Below, in pieces: positions 1,392 through 19,282 of a stretch of DNA of 30,496 bases. The first letter of the stretch is position 1. The number at the start of each line of letters is the position of its first letter. The stretch spans positions 1 to 30,496 of IMG/VR virus record IMGVR_UViG_3300009130_000096; one strand, given 5' to 3'. The notes under the pieces are model-generated. The model was not told the DNA's origin, ran no database searches, and saw only the letters and a program-made list of their open reading frames with translations. The position numbers and the translations under genes are program-made. This DNA is from a virus.

Positions 1392-2297
1392 ATGAAAGGA
1401 ATCCATTCAATATATACCTTTACAGATAGAGTAAGATATAAAGAACAATCTTATTTAGATATGGGATTATTTGAAGCTTATACCTTAATTTTATCTTGTT
1501 GTTATTGGAGAAAATTCCATGGAGATATTTCATTATATTGTGATAAAGATTTTTATAAATTTATTCAAGAATATAAATTAACCTCTTTATGGGACAATAT
1601 AGATAATACTTCTTTTGATTCTATTCCTAATGATATAAATTATAGTGTTTTTTGGACTTATCCTAAAATGTATATTCATTCGTTACAAAATCAACCCTTT
1701 ACTTCATTAGATGCTGATTTATTTTTTTGGGAGCCTCTTAATTTAAAAAAAGCAAACATAATATATGCCCATCCAGAAGTAGATCTAACAGGAGAAAATT
1801 ACCCAGATTACCACACTTCAAAAGAATATAAAGATATCTTTAAAGATTTAACTTTTAATGAATATTCTAGTAATATGAATACTGCCATATTAACTATTAA
1901 TAAAGTAGATTTTTATAAAGAATTAATGGATATAACTACTAGATTTGCAAAAAGGGCTACTATTAACATTAAAAATCAAAAATCAGTTCATGAATGGACT
2001 CATACAATTTTTTGTGAACAAAAGATAATAAGAAATGTTATTGAAAAACATAATTTGTCATGTGTGCCTCACTATGAAAAAGAATATTATACTGGAGAAG
2101 GAACAATTTGGCCTGAGGGTCATAGATTTGAGTTAGATGATGCCAAAATATTTCATTTATGGGGGAGCAAAACAAGAATAAAAAATGATCAAGAAGAAAG
2201 ATATGAATTAAATAAAAGACTTCATGATTGGATCGAAACAGATTTCCCAGAAATGATGGATATAGTTACTATTTTTAAAAAAATATTAAAACTATGA
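1392..2297 (+). CDS. Glycosyltransferase-like protein, paralog 1 of 3
   Basis: This 301-aa protein has the pattern of a GT-A-fold sugar transferase. An N-terminal beta/alpha section is followed by SVFWTYPKMYIHSLQNQPF and then a DxD-type motif, LDADLFF, with Asp at residues 107 and 109. In GT-A enzymes this motif holds the metal and the nucleotide-sugar. The same block (W.YPK.YI.SLQ.EPF..LDNDA) recurs in the next two genes, so the three are paralogs, and this one is the most divergent. It lacks the NAG(I/V)YG motif of the other two and has MNTAILTIN there. There is no signal peptide or membrane segment, so it is probably cytoplasmic. The stop overlaps the next start (ATGA), implying translational coupling. 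The family assignment is from motifs only; donor and acceptor are unknown. It may modify virion proteins, DNA or host surface sugars. Confidence 0.75.
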   Translation: MKGIHSIYTFTDRVRYKEQSYLDMGLFEAYTLILSCCYWRKFHGDISLYCDKDFYKFIQEYKLTSLWDNIDNTSFDSIPNDINYSVFWTYPKMYIHSLQNQPFTSLDADLFFWEPLNLKKANIIYAHPEVDLTGENYPDYHTSKEYKDIFKDLTFNEYSSNMNTAILTINKVDFYKELMDITTRFAKRATINIKNQKSVHEWTHTIFCEQKIIRNVIEKHNLSCVPHYEKEYYTGEGTIWPEGHRFELDDAKIFHLWGSKTRIKNDQEERYELNKRLHDWIETDFPEMMDIVTIFKKILKL

Positions 2298-3154
2298 AAA
2301 TTATATATACTATTTGGTCAAAACCTCATTTAGAGAAAGGTACTAATTTTGGTTTCCCTACTTTAGAAAATTTTATTAATAGTTTTGTTCTTAGTGTAAA
2401 TGCTATGAAATTAAACTATGATGATATTCATCTTTACATAGATACCCCTGGATTAAAAATGTTAGAACCCCACCTTGATAATTTACCTATCAAAAAAATC
2501 CACAATATATTAGATGAACTAGATTGGTTACCTAGTTTTTTTTGGGCTTTTCCTAAAATTCATGTTTATGGTTTACAAGATGAACCTTTTTTACATATAG
2601 ATAATGATGCTTTTTTATTTACCAAAATCCCACAAGAAGTATTAGATGAATGGGATATAATATGTCAATGGTTTGAAAATTATTTTTGGGATGAATATTC
2701 CCAATACCTAGAAGCTTTCTCATATTGGAGAAAATTCAATATTCTTCCTATGGAATTAATGTATTATCAGATTCATAGTACATGCCCTAATGCTGGGATT
2801 TATGGACCATGTAATGAAAAAGGTTTAAAATTATTTAAATATATTTCAAAAAAAGGAATGGAAACAGCTAAAAAAATAATCTCCAATAAAAAAGTATTAA
2901 ATCAACTACTAAAAGATTTAAAAGATGGAAACTTTTTACCTTATTATGTAAATATGATAAATGAACAATCCAGTTCAGGCGTGTATATGGATAAAAATGG
3001 TTTAAAAACTTTTTCAGTCTTACCTAATGACAATGAATATGCCATTCAATTCCAACATTTAATAGGAGGAGCAAAATTAGACCCTATAGCTAATGAAAAT
3101 ATCTCTGAAAGAATAAAAAATAAAAATTGGAATTTAAAAGAACCAGAAGAATGA
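2294..3154 (+). CDS. Glycosyltransferase-like protein, paralog 2 of 3
   Basis: This 286-aa paralog begins MKIIYTIWSKP, matching the start of the third copy (MKIVYSLWTKP). It then carries DELDWLPSFFWAFPKIHVYGLQ and the DxD-type motif HIDNDAFLF (Asp103 and Asp105). The next shared landmark is CPNAGIYGPCNEKGLKLF, a Gly-containing segment of the kind that follows the metal site in sugar transferases. The gene overlaps both neighbours by ATGA, so the three are one translational unit. No export signal is visible. The role is inferred as sugar transfer with an unknown substrate. Three tandem copies suggest either stepwise building of one glycan or related acceptors. Confidence 0.77.
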   Translation: MKIIYTIWSKPHLEKGTNFGFPTLENFINSFVLSVNAMKLNYDDIHLYIDTPGLKMLEPHLDNLPIKKIHNILDELDWLPSFFWAFPKIHVYGLQDEPFLHIDNDAFLFTKIPQEVLDEWDIICQWFENYFWDEYSQYLEAFSYWRKFNILPMELMYYQIHSTCPNAGIYGPCNEKGLKLFKYISKKGMETAKKIISNKKVLNQLLKDLKDGNFLPYYVNMINEQSSSGVYMDKNGLKTFSVLPNDNEYAIQFQHLIGGAKLDPIANENISERIKNKNWNLKEPEE

Positions 3155-4041
3155 AAATAGTATACTCATTATGGACTAAGCCCCTAAGAACACATTATAA
3201 TACTTTAGGATTTGATACTTTAGATGATTTTTTCACTAGCTTTATTTTTAGTGTAAATGTCTCAAAAAGAAATTATGATAATATCCATTTTTACACAGAT
3301 GAATATGGATTAGAATTAATAGAACCCTATAAGGACCAACTCCCATTTACTAAAATCCATTGTATACTAGATGAACTAGATTGGATCCCAGTTCAATGGT
3401 GGGCATACCCAAAACTTTATATTTACTCCCTCCAAAAAGAACCTTTTATGCATTTGGATAATGATGCTTATTTGTGGGACAGACTTGACCAAGATTTAAT
3501 TGATAATCATGATTTTGTTTGTCAAAGTTATGAAGACCATAGACTTAAAGAATATTATTTTTATAGAGAAGGTTTAGAATTTTATAAAGATCACATCCCT
3601 CCCATAATGTTAAACACAGATAAATATTTTATGGCTACCAATGCAGGTGTATATGGTGCTTTTAATCAAAAAGGATTTGATTTATTTACAGCTTTACATG
3701 AAGAAGGTTATAAAAGTGCTAAATCCGTTTTAAATGATAAAAGGATAGTAGATTTTGTAGATTGGAATGATTTAAGAAACTGGGATGCTTTTCTATTAAA
3801 TGTAGTTATGGAACAAACATATTCATATATTTATGCCAAGGAAAACAATCTTAGGATTTTACAATTATTAATGACCCCTACTAGGTTTACTCATTTACTT
3901 TCTGCTGCGAAGAGAAATAAAGATCGTATGGATAAAGTAAGAACAAGACTTATAAATAAACATTTTGAACCCAAATCCCCAAAAGAAATAGAAGCTGATG
4001 AAATTGAAAAATTATATATTGCAACTTATAAAAAAGATTAA
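3151..4041 (+). CDS. Glycosyltransferase-like protein, paralog 3 of 3, possibly shortened at its C-terminus
   Basis: I place the start at the ATG at 3151 rather than the in-frame ATG at 3127. The 3151 start gives MKIVYSLWTKP, which aligns with MKIIYTIWSKP of the preceding paralog, and it recreates the ATGA stop/start overlap. The product is 296 aa. Landmarks are DELDWIPVQWWAYPKLYIYSLQ, HLDNDAYLW (DxD Asp103 and Asp105) and TNAGVYGAFNQKGFDLF. The frame ends in KKD at an A6 run (4030-4035). Directly after it a different frame stays open to the stop at 4133-4135 and encodes a basic and then polar tail with no start of its own. This could be a lost or frameshifted C-terminal extension. Donor and acceptor are unknown. 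Confidence 0.76.
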   Translation: MKIVYSLWTKPLRTHYNTLGFDTLDDFFTSFIFSVNVSKRNYDNIHFYTDEYGLELIEPYKDQLPFTKIHCILDELDWIPVQWWAYPKLYIYSLQKEPFMHLDNDAYLWDRLDQDLIDNHDFVCQSYEDHRLKEYYFYREGLEFYKDHIPPIMLNTDKYFMATNAGVYGAFNQKGFDLFTALHEEGYKSAKSVLNDKRIVDFVDWNDLRNWDAFLLNVVMEQTYSYIYAKENNLRILQLLMTPTRFTHLLSAAKRNKDRMDKVRTRLINKHFEPKSPKEIEADEIEKLYIATYKKD

Positions 4042-4500: not shown

Positions 4501-6204
4501 ATGGCAGAAACTTTATTATCCCCTGGTGTATTAGCTAGAGAAAACGATCAATCTTTTCTCCAACAGCAACCTATTCAAGCAGGTGCAGCTATCTTAGGTC
4601 CAACAGTTAAAGGACCAGTTGGAATCCCAACCATAGTTACCACATATTCAGATTATAAAAATGTATTTGGTGCCGTAGTAGAGAGTGGTAGTGATGAGTA
4701 CACTTATTTCACCTCAGTTGCAGCATATAATTATTTCCAACAAGGTGGAGATTCATTATTAGTAACAAGAGTAGTAAGTGGTTCTTATTCAGAAGCAACA
4801 AGTTCTATTGATGCCTCAGGTTCATTAACAGCTCTTACAATAGAAACCTTATCTGAAGGAACAGCACAAAATAGTTCAGGTTCAGAAGGAACAGCAGGAC
4901 AATTAACGAATGGAACTAGAGAAAATATTAGATGGGAAGTTGTAAACCCAAATTCAGGTTCAGGTACATTTAATCTATTAGTTAGAAGAGGAGATGATAT
5001 TACCAATTCTAAAACAGTATTAGAAACTTGGACTAATCTATCAATGGATCCTAACGCTTCAAATTATGTAGCTAGAGTAATTGGAGATCAAAAGCAGGAA
5101 GTAACAAGTGATGCAGGTACATATTATGTTAAAACAACAGGTACTTATGCTAATGCTTCAAGATATATTAGAATAAAATCTGTAAGTCAAAAAACATTAA
5201 ATTATTTTGATAACGCAGGAAATGCAAAATCAGAATATACATCTTCTATCCCATTAGCTGCTTCAGGTACTATGGGTGGAGCTTTAGGTACAGCATTTGA
5301 CACTATAACCGGAACATTTAATGAAAATATAGGTTCAAATACCCAAGGATTAGTAGGTGGAAATTACGATGAATCAATTTCTTTATTAGCAAATCAAGAT
5401 GAATATAAATACAATTTAATTGTAGCACCAGGATTAACTAAAGAAGACCATTCATCTCAAATTTCATCTATCATTAATAATTCTCAACAAAGAGGAGATG
5501 CAATCGCAGTAGCAGATATGGTAGGATATGCTGATACAATTACAGGAGTTACAGGTCAAGCAGCAGGAATTGATTCTTCATATGCCGCAACATATTGGCC
5601 ATGGGTTCAAACAATTGATCCAGATTTAGGAGATCAAGTTTGGGTACCAGCTTCTACAATGATTCCAGGAGTATATGCTTTTAATGATAATTCAAGTGAA
5701 GCATGGTTCGCACCTGCAGGTTTAAATAGAGGTGGATTATCAACAGTAATTAGAGCAGAAAGAAAATTAACAAACGGAAATAGAGATACATTATATCAAG
5801 GAAATGTAAACCCAATAGCTACATTCCCTAACACAGGAGTAGTAGTATTTGGACAGAAAACACTACAGAAAAGAGCAAGTGCTTTAGATAGAGTAAATGT
5901 TAGAAGATTATTAATTGAATTAAAATCTTATATTTCTCAAGTAGCAGATAACTTAGTATTTGAACAAAATACAATAGCTACAAGAAACAATTTCTTAAGC
6001 CAAGTTAACCCATATTTAGAAAGTGTTCAACAAAGACAAGGTTTATATGCCTTTAAAGTTGTAATGGATGATAGTAATAACACCCCAGATGTTATTGATA
6101 GAAATCAGTTAGTAGGTCAAATTTACATTCAGCCAACTAGAACAGCTGAATTTATTTACCTAGATTTCAACATTTTACCAACTGGAGCTACTTTCCCAGC
6201 ATAA
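4501..6204 (+). CDS. Contractile tail sheath protein (gp18-like)
   Basis: This 567-aa protein polymerises around the tail tube and contracts to drive the tube into the host. The N-terminus ETLLSPGVLARENDQSF is the typical sheath start, in which an extended strand links subunits. It continues with the conserved IQAGAAILGPTVKGPVGIPT and YFQQGGDSLLVTRVV. The C-terminal sheath domain is clear: RRLLIELKSYISQVADNLVFEQN, then NPYLESVQQRQGLYAFKVV and the final QIYIQPTRTAEFIYLDFNI. It is shorter than T4 gp18 (about 660 aa), mainly in the exposed, Ser/Gly/Thr-rich middle. The tail tube gene follows, as is standard. The upstream region has a TATTTATA element and a 16-bp palindrome but no Shine-Dalgarno sequence. 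Confidence 0.96.
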   Translation: MAETLLSPGVLARENDQSFLQQQPIQAGAAILGPTVKGPVGIPTIVTTYSDYKNVFGAVVESGSDEYTYFTSVAAYNYFQQGGDSLLVTRVVSGSYSEATSSIDASGSLTALTIETLSEGTAQNSSGSEGTAGQLTNGTRENIRWEVVNPNSGSGTFNLLVRRGDDITNSKTVLETWTNLSMDPNASNYVARVIGDQKQEVTSDAGTYYVKTTGTYANASRYIRIKSVSQKTLNYFDNAGNAKSEYTSSIPLAASGTMGGALGTAFDTITGTFNENIGSNTQGLVGGNYDESISLLANQDEYKYNLIVAPGLTKEDHSSQISSIINNSQQRGDAIAVADMVGYADTITGVTGQAAGIDSSYAATYWPWVQTIDPDLGDQVWVPASTMIPGVYAFNDNSSEAWFAPAGLNRGGLSTVIRAERKLTNGNRDTLYQGNVNPIATFPNTGVVVFGQKTLQKRASALDRVNVRRLLIELKSYISQVADNLVFEQNTIATRNNFLSQVNPYLESVQQRQGLYAFKVVMDDSNNTPDVIDRNQLVGQIYIQPTRTAEFIYLDFNILPTGATFPA

Positions 6205-6250: not shown

Positions 6251-6739
6251 ATGGCAGTATTAGATCCAAACGAAATATTTTTCACCGCTTTTGAGCCAAA
6301 GCAAGCTAACAGATTCATTCTTTATATGGATGGTATACCAAGCTTTATCATTAAAGGGATAGGTGCTGTATCGTTAACACAAGGCACAGTAGCCTTAAAT
6401 CATATCAACGTTCAAAGATTTGTTAAAGGTAAAACTACTTGGAACACAATCTCAATGACATTATTTGATCCTATTACACCATCAGGTGCTCAAGCAGTAA
6501 TGGAATGGGTAAGATTACATCATGAATCTGTAACAGGTAGAGATGGTTATTCTGATTTTTATAAAAAAGATCTTACAGTAAATGTATTAGGACCTGTAGG
6601 TGATATAGTATCAGAATGGATTATAAAAGGTGCTTTAATTACAGAGGCTTCATTCGGTGAGTATAATTGGGATACTGTAGATGAAGCAAAAACTATAGAT
6701 TTAACAGTACAACCAGATTACTGTGTACTGAATTTCTAA
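6251..6739 (+). CDS. Tail tube protein (gp19-like)
   Basis: The 162-aa product is almost exactly the length of T4 gp19 (163 aa). Hexameric rings of this protein stack into the inner tube through which DNA passes. Family features include an N-terminal EPKQANRFILYMDGIPSFII, the central FVKGKTTWNTISMTLFDPITPSGAQAVMEWVRLHHE and a C-terminal beta section ending in DLTVQPDYCVLNF. It directly follows the sheath gene and precedes a strong terminator, so sheath and tube may form a separately controlled, highly expressed unit. The leader is A-rich with a TATTTATA element. Confidence 0.96.
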   Translation: MAVLDPNEIFFTAFEPKQANRFILYMDGIPSFIIKGIGAVSLTQGTVALNHINVQRFVKGKTTWNTISMTLFDPITPSGAQAVMEWVRLHHESVTGRDGYSDFYKKDLTVNVLGPVGDIVSEWIIKGALITEASFGEYNWDTVDEAKTIDLTVQPDYCVLNF

Positions 6740-6836: not shown

Positions 6837-7580
6837 ATGAGTGAATTTAAGTTTCCAACTGAGGAGGTAGATTTACCTTCTAAAGGTTTAATTTATCCAA
6901 AAGAAAATCCACTTTCTATAGGCAAGATCGAAATGAAGTATATGACTGCTAAGGAAGAAGATATTTTAACAAATCAAAATTATATAAAACAAGGAGTAGT
7001 AATAGATAAGCTTCTAAAATCCTTGATAGTCTCCAAAGTAAACTATGATGAATTGATAGTAGGAGATAAAAATGCTGTATTAGTAGCAGCTCGTGTTTTA
7101 GGTTATGGTAAAGATTATGAGTTTTCTAAAAATGGAGAAAATGTAAGTGTAGACTTATCAACACTTGAAACTAGATATTTAGATGAATCTTCTATGATAG
7201 AGGGTAAAAATGAATTTGCATTCACACTACCTCATACAGACACAAAAATTACCTATAAACTTTTAACTACTAAAGACGAAAAGAAAATTGAGGCTGAAAT
7301 TAAAGGTCTTAAAAAAATCAACAAACAAGCATCTCCTGAATTATCTACAAGATTAAAGCATATGATTACTTCAGTTAATGGAGAAACAGAAGATAAGCAA
7401 ATAAGAGAGTTTGTTGATACTTATTTCTTAGCTAGAGACTCTAGAGCATTTAGAGAACATCTTAAAGAAACTCAACCAGATGTAATCATGAAATTTGATT
7501 ATGTAGGTGAAAATGGTGTAGAGGAGGATGCTGTCATACCAATGACTGCCGGGTTTTTTTGGCCTGACTCTGGAGTATAG
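6837..7580 (+). CDS. Tail assembly chaperone / gp26-like baseplate assembly protein (zero-frame product)
   Basis: This 247-aa protein begins with FPTEEVDLPSKGLIYPKENP followed by KYMTAKEEDILTNQNYI. That opening is typical of the T4 gp26-like 'base plate protein' family found just ahead of the tape measure in T4-like phages. It is cytoplasmic and thought to act in tail initiation rather than stay as a main virion part. The C-terminus TAGFFWPDSGV ends at a TAG 18 bases after a T7 run (7554-7560). Within that overlap a second ORF opens in another frame with no start of its own at its 5' end. I therefore predict this gene makes both the 247-aa form and a longer frameshifted form, as tail chaperone genes of many phages do. 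Confidence 0.85.
   Translation: MSEFKFPTEEVDLPSKGLIYPKENPLSIGKIEMKYMTAKEEDILTNQNYIKQGVVIDKLLKSLIVSKVNYDELIVGDKNAVLVAARVLGYGKDYEFSKNGENVSVDLSTLETRYLDESSMIEGKNEFAFTLPHTDTKITYKLLTTKDEKKIEAEIKGLKKINKQASPELSTRLKHMITSVNGETEDKQIREFVDTYFLARDSRAFREHLKETQPDVIMKFDYVGENGVEEDAVIPMTAGFFWPDSGV
7551..7563 (+). other. Predicted programmed +1 or -2 frameshift site (GGGTTTTTTTGGC)
   Basis: Zero-frame reading is GGG TTT TTT TGG, ending at TAG 7578-7580. The downstream frame begins after a TGA at 7543-7545 and is open to 7857, so the overlap is only about 33 bases and contains the T7 run. From P-site TTT at 7557-7559, a +1 slip (to 7558-7560) or a -2 slip (to 7555-7557) both keep perfect TTT pairing, and both lead into GGC CTG ACT. 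The fusion would be about 339 or 340 aa. Confidence 0.7.
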
Positions 7581-7857
7581 AAAATACTTATTCCAACAAA
7601 TACATGATATAGTATACCATGGTAATGGTGGATATGATTACCATACTGTATACAATATGCCTATATGGCTAAGAAACTTCACTATTAAACAAATAATAGA
7701 TTGGAGGGATAAAGAAAACAAAGCTATGGAAAAAGCTTCCAAAGGAAAAAATACTACCTCCACCAACATAGGAGATCCCATTCCAGAACATATGAAAGGC
7801 ATCTTAAATGATACTAAACGCCAATCTAATTATACTATACAAAGGGCTAAAAAATAG
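7561..7857 (+). CDS. Second frame of the tail chaperone pair (gp51-like position), probably made as a fusion
   Basis: From the shift site this frame encodes LTLEYRKYLFQQIHDIVYH, then GGYDYHTVYNMPIWLRNFTIKQIIDWRDKE and a Lys-rich tail ending RAKK, about 98 residues. The first ATG in the frame is at 7657, which would give only 66 aa and discard a plausible, ordered upstream segment. No ATG or alternative start fits in 7546-7656. The tape measure gene follows directly, exactly where the extended chaperone of G/GT-type pairs lies, and the extended product normally binds the tape measure. The position also matches gp51-like factors. A separate 66-aa product from 7657 remains possible. Confidence 0.68.
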   Translation, partial: GLTLEYRKYLFQQIHDIVYHGNGGYDYHTVYNMPIWLRNFTIKQIIDWRDKENKAMEKASKGKNTTSTNIGDPIPEHMKGILNDTKRQSNYTIQRAKK

Positions 7858-7891: not shown

Positions 7892-10207
7892 ATGGGTAAA
7901 GCTGAAGAAGAAGCAAAGAAAATAGCCGAAAGTGTAAAAAGGGCTAAAGAGACTATGGATGAGTTGTTATTCGCAACTCGTGACTTTGCATCTGAAGCAG
8001 CTAAAGCCGCAAAAGAATTAGGTTTTAATGCAATCCAAGCAGCTGAAACTAGAAAAGCATTTAGAGATTTAGCTAAAGTTCAAGAAGAAATAGCCTTAAG
8101 TATAGAAGATGTAAACGATGGTATGAAATCCATGGCGGATGTCTCTAAAACCCAAGTAAAATTAGATCAAAGGAAGAAAAAACTTCAATTAGAATTAAAT
8201 CAATCCCTTTCAGCAAACGTAAAAAAACACGTTGATATTGAAAAGATTTTAAAAGGGGAATTTGATGTAACAAATGATATCTTAAAAAAAGGGGTTCCTA
8301 TATCTAAAAAACAAGCAGATTTACTTAAAATATACCAAGAACAATTTAAAACTCTACAGGAAACTGAAGATGAAATGGATCAAATTTCTGATAGAGCTGC
8401 TCAAATAGAAGGGGGATTAGGGGGAACTGGAAAGGCTTTAAAAGGTTTATCAAAATTATTTCCTAAATTAGGAATAGATAAAGCAGTCCAAGAAGGAAGA
8501 GAACTTTCAGCATCATTAACTAAAGGAACAGATGGAGCAGCAGGATTAGGAGTTAAAATGCAAACAGCAGCTAAAATGCTAGATAGTGTAGGTGGTGGTA
8601 TGTTAAAAGCAGTAGGACCAGCAGCTATTTTATCTAAAATGTTTAAATCTATTAAAGAGGTAGATAAAGCATCTGGTGAGTTTGCTAAAAACATGGGAAT
8701 ATCTTATAAAGAAGCTTTAGCATTAAGAGGTGAAATGAGTAGAGTTGCAGATTCCACCAAAGATATTATGGTTGACTCTAAAAGCTTAATGGAGACTCAA
8801 GTAAGATTAAATGAATACTTTGGTCAAACCGTTAAATTTTCAGGGGATCTTGCGGCAGATATGGATTCCATATCTAAAAGAACTAAAATGTCTGCTGATA
8901 CTCAAGGAATATTAGCCATGGAGTCCTTAAGAACAGGAAAAGGGGCTAAAGATATATTAAAAACAATAAATCTCCAAGTATTGGAGATGAACAAGCAAAA
9001 GGGCTTGAACATGAGTTTCAAACAAGTTCAAGATGCTATAGGTAAGACCTCTAAAGCACTTCAATTAACATTTAAAGGAAGCACAAAAGAATTGGTTAAG
9101 CAAGTAATGTCCGCTAAAAAATTAGGGGCTAATATGGAAACTATAAATAGTATAGCCTCCAGTTTACTAGATTTCGAAGGCTCTATTCAAGCAGAACTTG
9201 AAGCAGAATTATTACTTGGAAAAGAAATTAACCTAGAGAAAGCAAGACAATTTGCTCTTGAAGGAGATATGGGTAAAATGGCAGATGAAGTTCTTAAAAA
9301 TAGGGCAATTATGAATGCCTTTGAAACCAAAAATGTTATTGCTCAAGAAGCAGCAGCAAAAGCTTTAGGTTTATCTAGAGACCAATTAGCCGAGATGGTT
9401 ATGGAACAACAAAAGCAAAAAACTCTTCAAGATGCTTTTGGTGATAAAGTAACTGATATGAATGCAGCTCAAGAGGAATATAACAGATTAAGAGCAAGTG
9501 GATTATCAGCGGAGCAAGTAGCGGAGCAAATGAAGGATGATGACTTAGCTAGACAGATGGAATCCGTATCCCAAGCAGAACAATTAGAAGCCGCAATGAC
9601 AAGAATTCAAGAAATTTTTGTTCAAATAGCCGAACCTGTTTTAGGGCTTGTACAAGGAATAATGGATATGGTAGGTGGAGCCCAAAACTTAGCAGCCATT
9701 TTAAAAGGTATACTTATTACATATGTAGCGATTAAATCTGCTAATATGATTTTAGGGGCAATGGGAAAAACCCAAATAGGAATCCAAAGTACCTTAGCAG
9801 CTATAACAGCAACAAAAGCAACAGCTGAAATCTCAGCAGCCTCAGCCTTAACTCTTGGTATAGGTGTAGCCGCTATTATTGCAGGGATAGCAGCAGGGGT
9901 AATGGCAATGAGAAGCCAAGCCTCAGATGCAAAATCATCAATGAAAGATGGTGTTATTGGTCCAGGTGGTGAAATGGTAGTATCTGGCCCTAAGGGTTCT
10001 ATTCAATTAGACAAAGATGATTCTATTATAGCAGGTACAGATTTAGGAGGTAAAGGTGGAGGAGCAAAAAGAGATGCAGCTCTAATTGCTAAAGTAGAAC
10101 AACTTATAGCCGTAAATCAACAAATATTAGCTAAATCCCCAATAATAGAAATGCAAGGAAATGAAGTGGGTCAAGGAATTAACACAGACTCACGAGCAGT
10201 TCAATAA
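7892..10207 (+). CDS. Tail tape measure protein
   Basis: This 771-aa protein sets tail length and occupies the tube lumen until DNA ejection. Its first 200 residues are Lys/Glu/Ala-rich and helical (EEEAKKIAESVKRAKETMDE). A long Ala/Lys/Met-rich helical body follows, with a hydrophobic region near residues 600-675 (ILKGILITYVAIKSANMILG and LTLGIGVAAIIAGIAAGVMA). Such hydrophobic segments are usual in tape measures and may enter the host membrane. The tail of the protein is a Gly-rich beta-like stretch (VIGPGGEMVVSGPKGSIQLD) and a short coiled coil. Taking the common rule of about 0.15 nm per residue, the tail would be roughly 115 nm, which is my estimate. It follows the chaperone pair, as expected. 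Confidence 0.9.
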   Translation: MGKAEEEAKKIAESVKRAKETMDELLFATRDFASEAAKAAKELGFNAIQAAETRKAFRDLAKVQEEIALSIEDVNDGMKSMADVSKTQVKLDQRKKKLQLELNQSLSANVKKHVDIEKILKGEFDVTNDILKKGVPISKKQADLLKIYQEQFKTLQETEDEMDQISDRAAQIEGGLGGTGKALKGLSKLFPKLGIDKAVQEGRELSASLTKGTDGAAGLGVKMQTAAKMLDSVGGGMLKAVGPAAILSKMFKSIKEVDKASGEFAKNMGISYKEALALRGEMSRVADSTKDIMVDSKSLMETQVRLNEYFGQTVKFSGDLAADMDSISKRTKMSADTQGILAMESLRTGKGAKDILKTINLQVLEMNKQKGLNMSFKQVQDAIGKTSKALQLTFKGSTKELVKQVMSAKKLGANMETINSIASSLLDFEGSIQAELEAELLLGKEINLEKARQFALEGDMGKMADEVLKNRAIMNAFETKNVIAQEAAAKALGLSRDQLAEMVMEQQKQKTLQDAFGDKVTDMNAAQEEYNRLRASGLSAEQVAEQMKDDDLARQMESVSQAEQLEAAMTRIQEIFVQIAEPVLGLVQGIMDMVGGAQNLAAILKGILITYVAIKSANMILGAMGKTQIGIQSTLAAITATKATAEISAASALTLGIGVAAIIAGIAAGVMAMRSQASDAKSSMKDGVIGPGGEMVVSGPKGSIQLDKDDSIIAGTDLGGKGGGAKRDAALIAKVEQLIAVNQQILAKSPIIEMQGNEVGQGINTDSRAVQ

Positions 10208-18025: not shown

Positions 18026-19282
18026 ATGTTTTGGCTAATAGAGAACACTGAACAATTAAAGGGTTTTTACAATAGGGGTTATAAAGAAGCGTATATAGAA
18101 GTTATACCATATTCTTATAAAACCCACCCTGTAAAAACTGAAGTATCCCTAGTATATTTACACCCTGTAAATTCACATAAGGGTTATATTCTATCTATAA
18201 ATCATAGTGAATCTATGCCGTTAAACAGCGAGTATATTGCTGAATTAATTAATACGTATGACACCCTATATGTTTGGGGTAAAAAGGAGTTTCTGCATTA
18301 CTTTGTGCATAAAAATTTAGTAGACATTTCTTTAAATTCTCCTGAATATGAGTTAGAAAAAACAAAAGCCCATCATATTTTAACACAAAGGAACAAAGAT
18401 AAATTGGATATTAACAGAATAGTTCCTATCGTTAAACATTATGAGGTTTGTGAAAAAAACTATAATAATTTAAAACAATATTTCAATGAACCAATCAACA
18501 AATTTTACAACAACAGAGTACCATTGGTATTCAACTCCATTGAAAGGAGTGGTATACAAGTTGACCCCGAACTATTCAAGTCTTACTTCAACCAAGATTG
18601 GGGAGATAAAGTATACACACAATATAACTACAGAACAACCACCACAAGACCCTCTAATAGATTTGGAGGAGTCAACTTCGCTGCTTTAAATAAAGAAAAT
18701 GGATGTAGGAAAGCTTTTATACCAAAAAATGATAAATTTCTTGAAATTGATATTTCTGCTTATCACCCTACCCTTGCAGCTCAGTTGGTTAATTATAAGT
18801 TCGATACTGTTGATATTCATAAGTCCTTTGCAAAGATGTATAACGTGGATTACAAAAAAGCTAAAGAGCTCACGTTCAAGCAGCTTTATGGGGGCGTTTT
18901 TAAACAGTATAGGGATCTTGAGTTCTTTCAAAAAACACAAAAATTCATAGATGGGTTATGGTATGATTTTGAGAATAAGGGTTTTATTACTTGCCCTATT
19001 TCAGAATATAAATTTGAAAAGGATAAATTAGATAACATGAATCCACAAAAACTTTTTAATTATTTACTACAAAATTTGGAGACGTCAAAAAATGTTTGTA
19101 TATTGTGGAGCGTAATAAAATTATTAAAAAATACAAAAACCAAATTAGTCTTGTACACCTATGACGCGTTTTTGTTAGATTATGATGAAACCGAAGAAAG
19201 TGTACTTAACCAAATAAAAAACGTGTTTAAACAACACGAATTAAACATAAAAATTAGTGATGGAAGCAACTATGACTTTTGA
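18026..19282 (+). CDS. Compact family A DNA polymerase
   Basis: The 418-aa protein has the polymerase half of PolA. VPLVFNSIERSGIQVDPELF is the thumb-to-palm entry (compare PLV..L..ME..GI.VD). YRTTTTRPSNRFGGVNFAAL matches the TGRLSS..PNLQN region. FLEIDISAYHPTLAAQ is motif A (catalytic Asp near residue 240). KKAKELTFKQLYGG is motif B. LVLYTYDAFLLDY is motif C, with YDA in place of the usual HDE. The first 130 residues look like a worn 3'-5' exonuclease domain: a YIEV segment sits where DxE should be, so proofreading is probably absent. The likely role is phage genome replication with the helicase, SSB and 5' nuclease downstream. It overlaps the next gene. PolA here contrasts with the family B polymerase of T4. 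Confidence 0.85.
   Translation: MFWLIENTEQLKGFYNRGYKEAYIEVIPYSYKTHPVKTEVSLVYLHPVNSHKGYILSINHSESMPLNSEYIAELINTYDTLYVWGKKEFLHYFVHKNLVDISLNSPEYELEKTKAHHILTQRNKDKLDINRIVPIVKHYEVCEKNYNNLKQYFNEPINKFYNNRVPLVFNSIERSGIQVDPELFKSYFNQDWGDKVYTQYNYRTTTTRPSNRFGGVNFAALNKENGCRKAFIPKNDKFLEIDISAYHPTLAAQLVNYKFDTVDIHKSFAKMYNVDYKKAKELTFKQLYGGVFKQYRDLEFFQKTQKFIDGLWYDFENKGFITCPISEYKFEKDKLDNMNPQKLFNYLLQNLETSKNVCILWSVIKLLKNTKTKLVLYTYDAFLLDYDETEESVLNQIKNVFKQHELNIKISDGSNYDF

Follow-up and report, generated by a model that had tools for sequence, protein, structure and literature searches.

The window, meaning here the whole stretch of 30,496 bases that was analysed, is a fragment of the genome of an uncultivated T4-like myovirus, a virus of bacteria. 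Genes for a tail sheath, a tail tube and a tape-measure protein lie in this order on one strand, and between the latter two are found two overlapping open reading frames, ORF1 and ORF2 (Table 1). ORF1 begins with the ATG at 6837 and ends with a TAG at 7578-7580. The frame of ORF2, which is +1 (equivalent to -2) relative to that of ORF1, is open after a TGA at 7543-7545 and ends with a TAG at 7855-7857; the first ATG, GTG or TTG within it is the ATG at 7657. The overlap contains a run of exactly seven Ts (7554-7560, within GGGTTTTTTTGGC). The TGA, the T run, the ORF1 stop and the ATG had been placed at these positions in an original prediction that a +1 or -2 frameshift takes place at the run, and rechecking of the sequence confirmed them. 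By itself the T7 run is unremarkable, as there are seven runs of at least seven Ts in the window; as far as sequence comparison can tell, it is the context of the run that goes beyond chance. Elsewhere in the window, three tandem genes (1392-4041) all match DUF6734 (E 3e-17 to 5e-37), the second and third being paralogues with 37% identity, and a 418-residue protein (18026-19282) resembles by eye a fragment of a family A DNA polymerase, with no Pfam match at E 0.01.

Table 1. Features of the chaperone locus, in window coordinates.
Feature	Position	Strand	Evidence
Tail sheath (gp18-like)	4501..6204	+	phrog_23 tail sheath, E 9e-73; Pfam Phage_sheath_1; upstream context
Tail tube (gp19-like)	6251..6739	+	phrog_4542 tail tube, E 7e-20; directly 5' of ORF1
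ORF1, putative short tail assembly chaperone, T4 gp26-like, counterpart of lambda G	6837..7580	+	247 aa, 28.1 kDa; phrog_150
ORF1/+1-frame overlap	7546..7580	+	substitutions among relatives mostly at third position of +1 frame
Putative slip site UUU_UUU_UGG	7554..7562	+	identical in 115/139 distinct contexts; variants all YUU_U or UUU_C
ORF2, +1 frame, predicted C-terminal extension of long chaperone	7561..7857	+	same-frame homologues in 174/182 distinct loci
Tape-measure protein	7892..10207	+	directly 3'; 28% identity over 587 residues, E 1e-45, to immuto protein annotated as tail tape measure

ORF1 matches phrog_150, a family labelled 'baseplate hub' (E 1e-8), and the spliced product of ORF1 and ORF2 aligns to positions 10-271 of the 282 in this family. 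Among named relatives, ORF1 is closest to the baseplate hub subunit of Flavobacterium phage immuto (61% identity), while its score against PF12322 (19.7 bits) falls below the cut-off of 24.5. ORF1 is best described as a divergent T4 gp26-like protein, with a presumed function as a tail assembly chaperone. ORF2 matches DUF6760 only weakly (E 0.12, below cut-off) and this identity is not claimed. The structures of ORF1 and ORF2 were predicted separately. The AlphaFold2 model of ORF1 has a mean pLDDT of 89, and that of ORF2, built from 78 sequences, has helices at residues 9-25, 32-36 and 40-66, with pLDDT 92-95 over residues 11-60. The part of ORF2 that precedes its first possible start codon had been expected to encode an ordered segment; this was borne out, as helix 9-25 (the LEYRKYLFQQIHDIVYH region) is situated there and close to the segment originally singled out. 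Foldseek searches of the two models against the PDB gave no significant match, the HK97 tail assembly chaperone 2OB9 appearing at rank 6 with a non-significant E of 1.8, and no match was found in a PDB sequence search.

The arrangement of the two frames is conserved. A tblastn search with ORF2 identified homologues in immuto, Microcystis phage Mel-JY01 and the metagenomic phage LR756508, each of them starting within the overlap with ORF1 and sharing the +1 frame. The first scans of viral contigs returned this arrangement at 80 of 80 loci and then at 94 of 96, and in a third set of 48 distinct loci, which was found via ORF2, it was present at 41. Few new loci were added by scanning with SP-15 and PA5oct. 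After de-duplication there were 182 distinct loci. At 174 of these ORF2 occupies the +1 frame and runs open across the site, at six it does so in the -1 frame, and at the remaining two it is not open. Independent genomes with T7, T8, T4 or T3-C-T3 at the site keep the same frames, which was the comparison of T runs and frames originally proposed as a check.

Selection on ORF2 is evident from the pattern of substitutions. Over the 24 codons past the overlap, substitutions at positions 1, 2 and 3 of the +1 frame number 8173, 5619 and 18912, and within the overlap they number 4623, 4690 and 10608, although these counts are not test statistics because pairs of relatives are not independent. The third position of the +1 frame, which in the overlap is the first position of the ORF1 frame, is thus again the most variable, indicating that the +1 frame is translated and that it is the more constrained of the two frames there.

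A closer comparison was made of 139 distinct contexts, which form 65 clusters below 75% nucleotide identity. The site is TTTTTTTGG in 115 of them, TTCTTTTGG in nine, TTTCTTTGG in eight and CTTTTTTGG in three; rarer forms are TTTTTTTAC (two), TTTCTTTAC (one) and TTTCTATTC (one). At all 174 loci of the +1 type the site conforms to YUU_U or UUU_C, the sequences found being UUU_UUU_UGG, UUU_CUU_UGG, UUC_UUU_UGG, CUU_UUU_UGG, UUU_UUU_UAC/UAU/UUC, UUU_CUU_UAC and UUU_CUA_UUC. Re-pairing in the +1 direction is possible at every one, either with U after UUU or CUU, or with C after UUU. UGG occupies the A site in 135 of the 139 contexts. UUC accounts for 206 of 1117 phenylalanine codons (18%) in the body of ORF1 and is missing from the slip codon (0 of 129), as re-pairing requires; treating clusters as independent, the chance of this is about 3e-6. 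UUC does appear one codon before the slip codon. Near the site, no stimulatory stem was detected (mean z -0.3 to -1.0, with no region special), no Shine-Dalgarno-like element was found or enriched, and there was no match to an Rfam family. GGGG is enriched upstream (28 against about 4), since many relatives share a GCCGGGTTT or TCGGGTTT context.

Very probably, ORF1 and ORF2 constitute a single tail assembly chaperone gene that is read in two ways by means of a +1 frameshift. The original prediction of a frameshifting chaperone pair of the gp26/gp51 type ahead of the tape-measure gene is strongly supported by the comparison, with the same frame at 174 of 182 loci. As to direction, the original alternatives were +1 and -2. 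Tail chaperone genes of Mu-like phages use a -2 frameshift, and the T7 run of the window would allow UUU to re-pair on UUU two bases back, giving AGFFFGLTLEYR. This is improbable, as re-pairing at -2 is not available throughout the family. In relatives with UUC_UUU_UGG (nine distinct contexts in two clusters) tRNA-Phe would come to lie on UCU after a -2 slip, and the site of LR756508, AAC_UUU_CUA_UUC, permits +1 re-pairing with no -2 option; yet the frame of ORF2 is unchanged in both. Sites that exclude -2 are a minority (UUC_UUU_UGG in nine contexts and UUU_CUA_UUC in one), and the T7 run of the window alone also permits it, but as these relatives fit only a +1 slip, the direction is best read as +1.

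A second possibility, somewhat less probable again, is that ORF2 is a separate gene with a start of its own, either the ATG at 7657 or a non-standard codon, possibly coupled to termination of ORF1. The annotators of immuto and Mel-JY01 called two ORFs, and 69 of the 139 contexts contain some start codon in the frame of ORF2, at the slip or upstream of it, which counts against the frameshift. In the other 70 there is no ATG, GTG or TTG there, and the first start is often 87-96 nucleotides downstream of the slip, inside the folded domain. The ATG at 7657 is residue 38 of ORF2, so that a protein begun at this point would be without the first two helices and the conserved GNGGYDYHTVYN segment, and the stretch upstream of this ATG is itself conserved as protein. 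At two loci, L100 and L105, ORF2 does have its own ATG, a few bases past the ORF1 stop; relatives of this kind had been named in advance as evidence against a frameshift. Such an ORF2 is therefore present in relatives, but in both cases its frame is a different one and the slip site has changed (TTC_TTG_TAT and TTC_CTT_TGG, respectively). At these loci the frameshift appears to have been replaced by the ATG, with a new N-terminal segment on ORF2. L105 still has CUU_U, showing that presence of the motif alone does not demonstrate its use.

A third explanation, rated lower still, places the slip in transcription: RNA polymerase would slide on the T run and make some mRNAs one base short or two bases long, with no shift by the ribosome. 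T7 homopolymers can promote such slippage and most of the loci have T7 or T8, but the same frame is kept at sites where the longest run is T3 or T4 (UUU_CUU_UGG, UUC_UUU_UGG and UUU_CUA_UUC), and these speak against it. It is also countered by the six loci of the -1 type (L338, L340, L341, L347, L348 and L362). Here the sequence is AAT_TTT_TTC_TGG, which includes a perfect heptamer of the classical -1 type, U_UUU_UUC, and it is the -1 frame that ORF2 occupies, with no stop codon interrupting it at the site. The six are close relatives and may therefore represent one event; as compared across genomes, site and frame co-vary within the chaperone family. Finally, a sequencing or assembly error in what is truly one continuous ORF can be dismissed: homopolymers are error-prone, but the same +1 frame is kept through the site at 174 of 182 distinct loci, including those of isolates and those with no homopolymer.

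With a +1 frameshift, most ribosomes would stop at 7578-7580 and yield the short, gp26-like form of 247 residues, while a minority would slip at UUU_UUU_UGG. In the latter, peptidyl-tRNA-Phe in the P site is proposed to re-pair from the second UUU (7557-7559) to the UUU at 7558-7560, after which GGC (7561-7563) would be the next codon read. The long form would comprise 339 residues (39.0 kDa) with the junction AGFFGLTLEYR, and the tryptic junction peptide predicted for the window sequence is FDYVGENGVEEDAVIPMTAGFFGLTLEYR. By analogy with lambda G and GT, both forms may coat the tape measure, and the extra domain of the long form may recruit tail tube subunits.

This appears to be a conserved, programmed +1 frameshift that resembles lambda G/GT in its working and differs from it in direction and site. 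In lambda, an overlapping pair of ORFs ahead of the tape-measure gene gives a short protein and a rarer, C-terminally extended fusion (PMC5009743), and the pair between the tail tube and tape-measure genes of the window would do likewise. ORF2 would correspond to lambda T and to the C-terminal part of gp51 in T4. As with lambda, ORF2 lacks a start of its own (in 70 of the 139 contexts) and lies in one fixed, conserved frame (at 174 of the 182 loci). Lambda shifts by -1 on X_XXY_YYZ, whereas at the window the shift would be +1, on UUU_UUU_UGG, and not -1. Bacterial prfB also uses a +1 shift, at CUU_UGA, with an upstream Shine-Dalgarno sequence and a stop codon in the A site. The window has UGG in the A site, with the stop several codons further on, and there is no Shine-Dalgarno enrichment. 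In influenza virus, PA-X is produced by a +1 frameshift at UCC_UUU_CGU, where slippage on UUU_C is established (PMC3498833). The genes are different, but in prfB and PA-X, as proposed here, the P-site tRNA slips +1 at a UUU or CUU that has a pyrimidine after it, and the UUC_UUU_CGU site of Streptococcus phage GXN1 is close to that of PA-X.

GXN1 (L006) is one of several more distant phages in which a +1-frame ORF2 overlaps the end of a gp26-like gene, the others being Bacillus phage SP-15 (L004), Listeria phage LIS04 (L194) and Rhodothermus phage RM378 (L005); in RM378 the chaperone gene precedes those for the tail tube and sheath. Cyanophages have the same two-domain chaperone, in which a T-rich Phe-Phe site again gives access to ORF2 through a shift of frame, but the site is the heptamer U_UUU_UUC, followed by one codon and then a stop, and ORF2 is in the -1 frame. 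This holds for nearly all the distinct cyanophage loci examined, one of which appears frame-disrupted. At these loci (L209-L288, L195 and L368), gp26 and gp51 have the appearance of a single gene with a -1 site at U_UUU_UUC, and the short gp51 that has been annotated is missing its true N-terminal part. The -1 layout is also found in PA5oct, K64-1, GAP32, SCTP-2, XaC1 and Atu_ph07, and in Vibrio phage PG216 (Schizotequatrovirus), Aeromonas phage phiAS5, Stenotrophomonas phage Marzo and Rhizobium phage IC12; the site in phiM12 is U_UUU_UUU. In Salmonella phage CRW-SP2 (L374, Ackermannviridae), a gp26-like ORF ends GAA_ATT_TTC_ATT_TAA and has an ORF2-like extension in the -1 frame, with a slip site weaker than U_UUU_UUC.

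In T4 itself, gp26 and gp51 are two separate, complete genes on opposite strands and there is no frameshift. Profiles of the spliced +1 family and the spliced cyanophage-type -1 family align from end to end (99.7%, E 2e-25); the cyanophage-type profile in turn aligns with T4 gp51 (99.2% over 247 columns) and with gp26 (99.7%). When the +1 family was compared directly with the T4 proteins by profile, no match appeared, so the relationship is drawn via the cyanophages. By this route the whole fusion would have its T4 equivalent in gp51, and the short form in gp26.

A 2016 review describes conservation of the G-T frameshift as wide among long-tailed phages, 'except T4' (PMC5009743), and cyanophage gp51 has been reported to have only about 20% of the length of its T4 counterpart (Sullivan et al., PMC3037559). 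The -1 layout would explain the latter, gp51 being the frameshift-accessed tail of gp26. The original prediction was offered as not known to be described for such phages. For the +1 form no description was found in the literature searched, although absence is not proven. The -1 version, which occurs in cyanophages and others, may in part have been covered already: Vladimirov, Gautam and Davidson reportedly identified T4-like chaperone genes in 2022 (Virology 566:9), under a title said to favour a mechanism other than frameshifting. That work is cited in a 2025 paper for poly-T -1 slippery sequences in T4-like phages (PMC12846349), which suggests that the -1 form may be known.

The annotations examined (immuto, Mel-JY01 and the cyanophages) give two genes and miss the fusion. 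The +1 version would need only a short motif, with no evident stimulator, and within the family the changes in direction form a natural series. The comparison places frameshifting in many T4-like phages, T4 having been cited as the exception to it. It seems likely that T4-like phages keep a two-form chaperone while the route to its production changes, the direction of the shift and the slip sequence switching together within one gene family. With a similar degree of confidence, these routes would be a +1 shift in the clade of the window and in SP-15, LIS04, GXN1 and RM378; a -1 shift in cyanophages, in several jumbo and other myophages and in the six close relatives; a separate start at L100 and L105; and two genes in T4.
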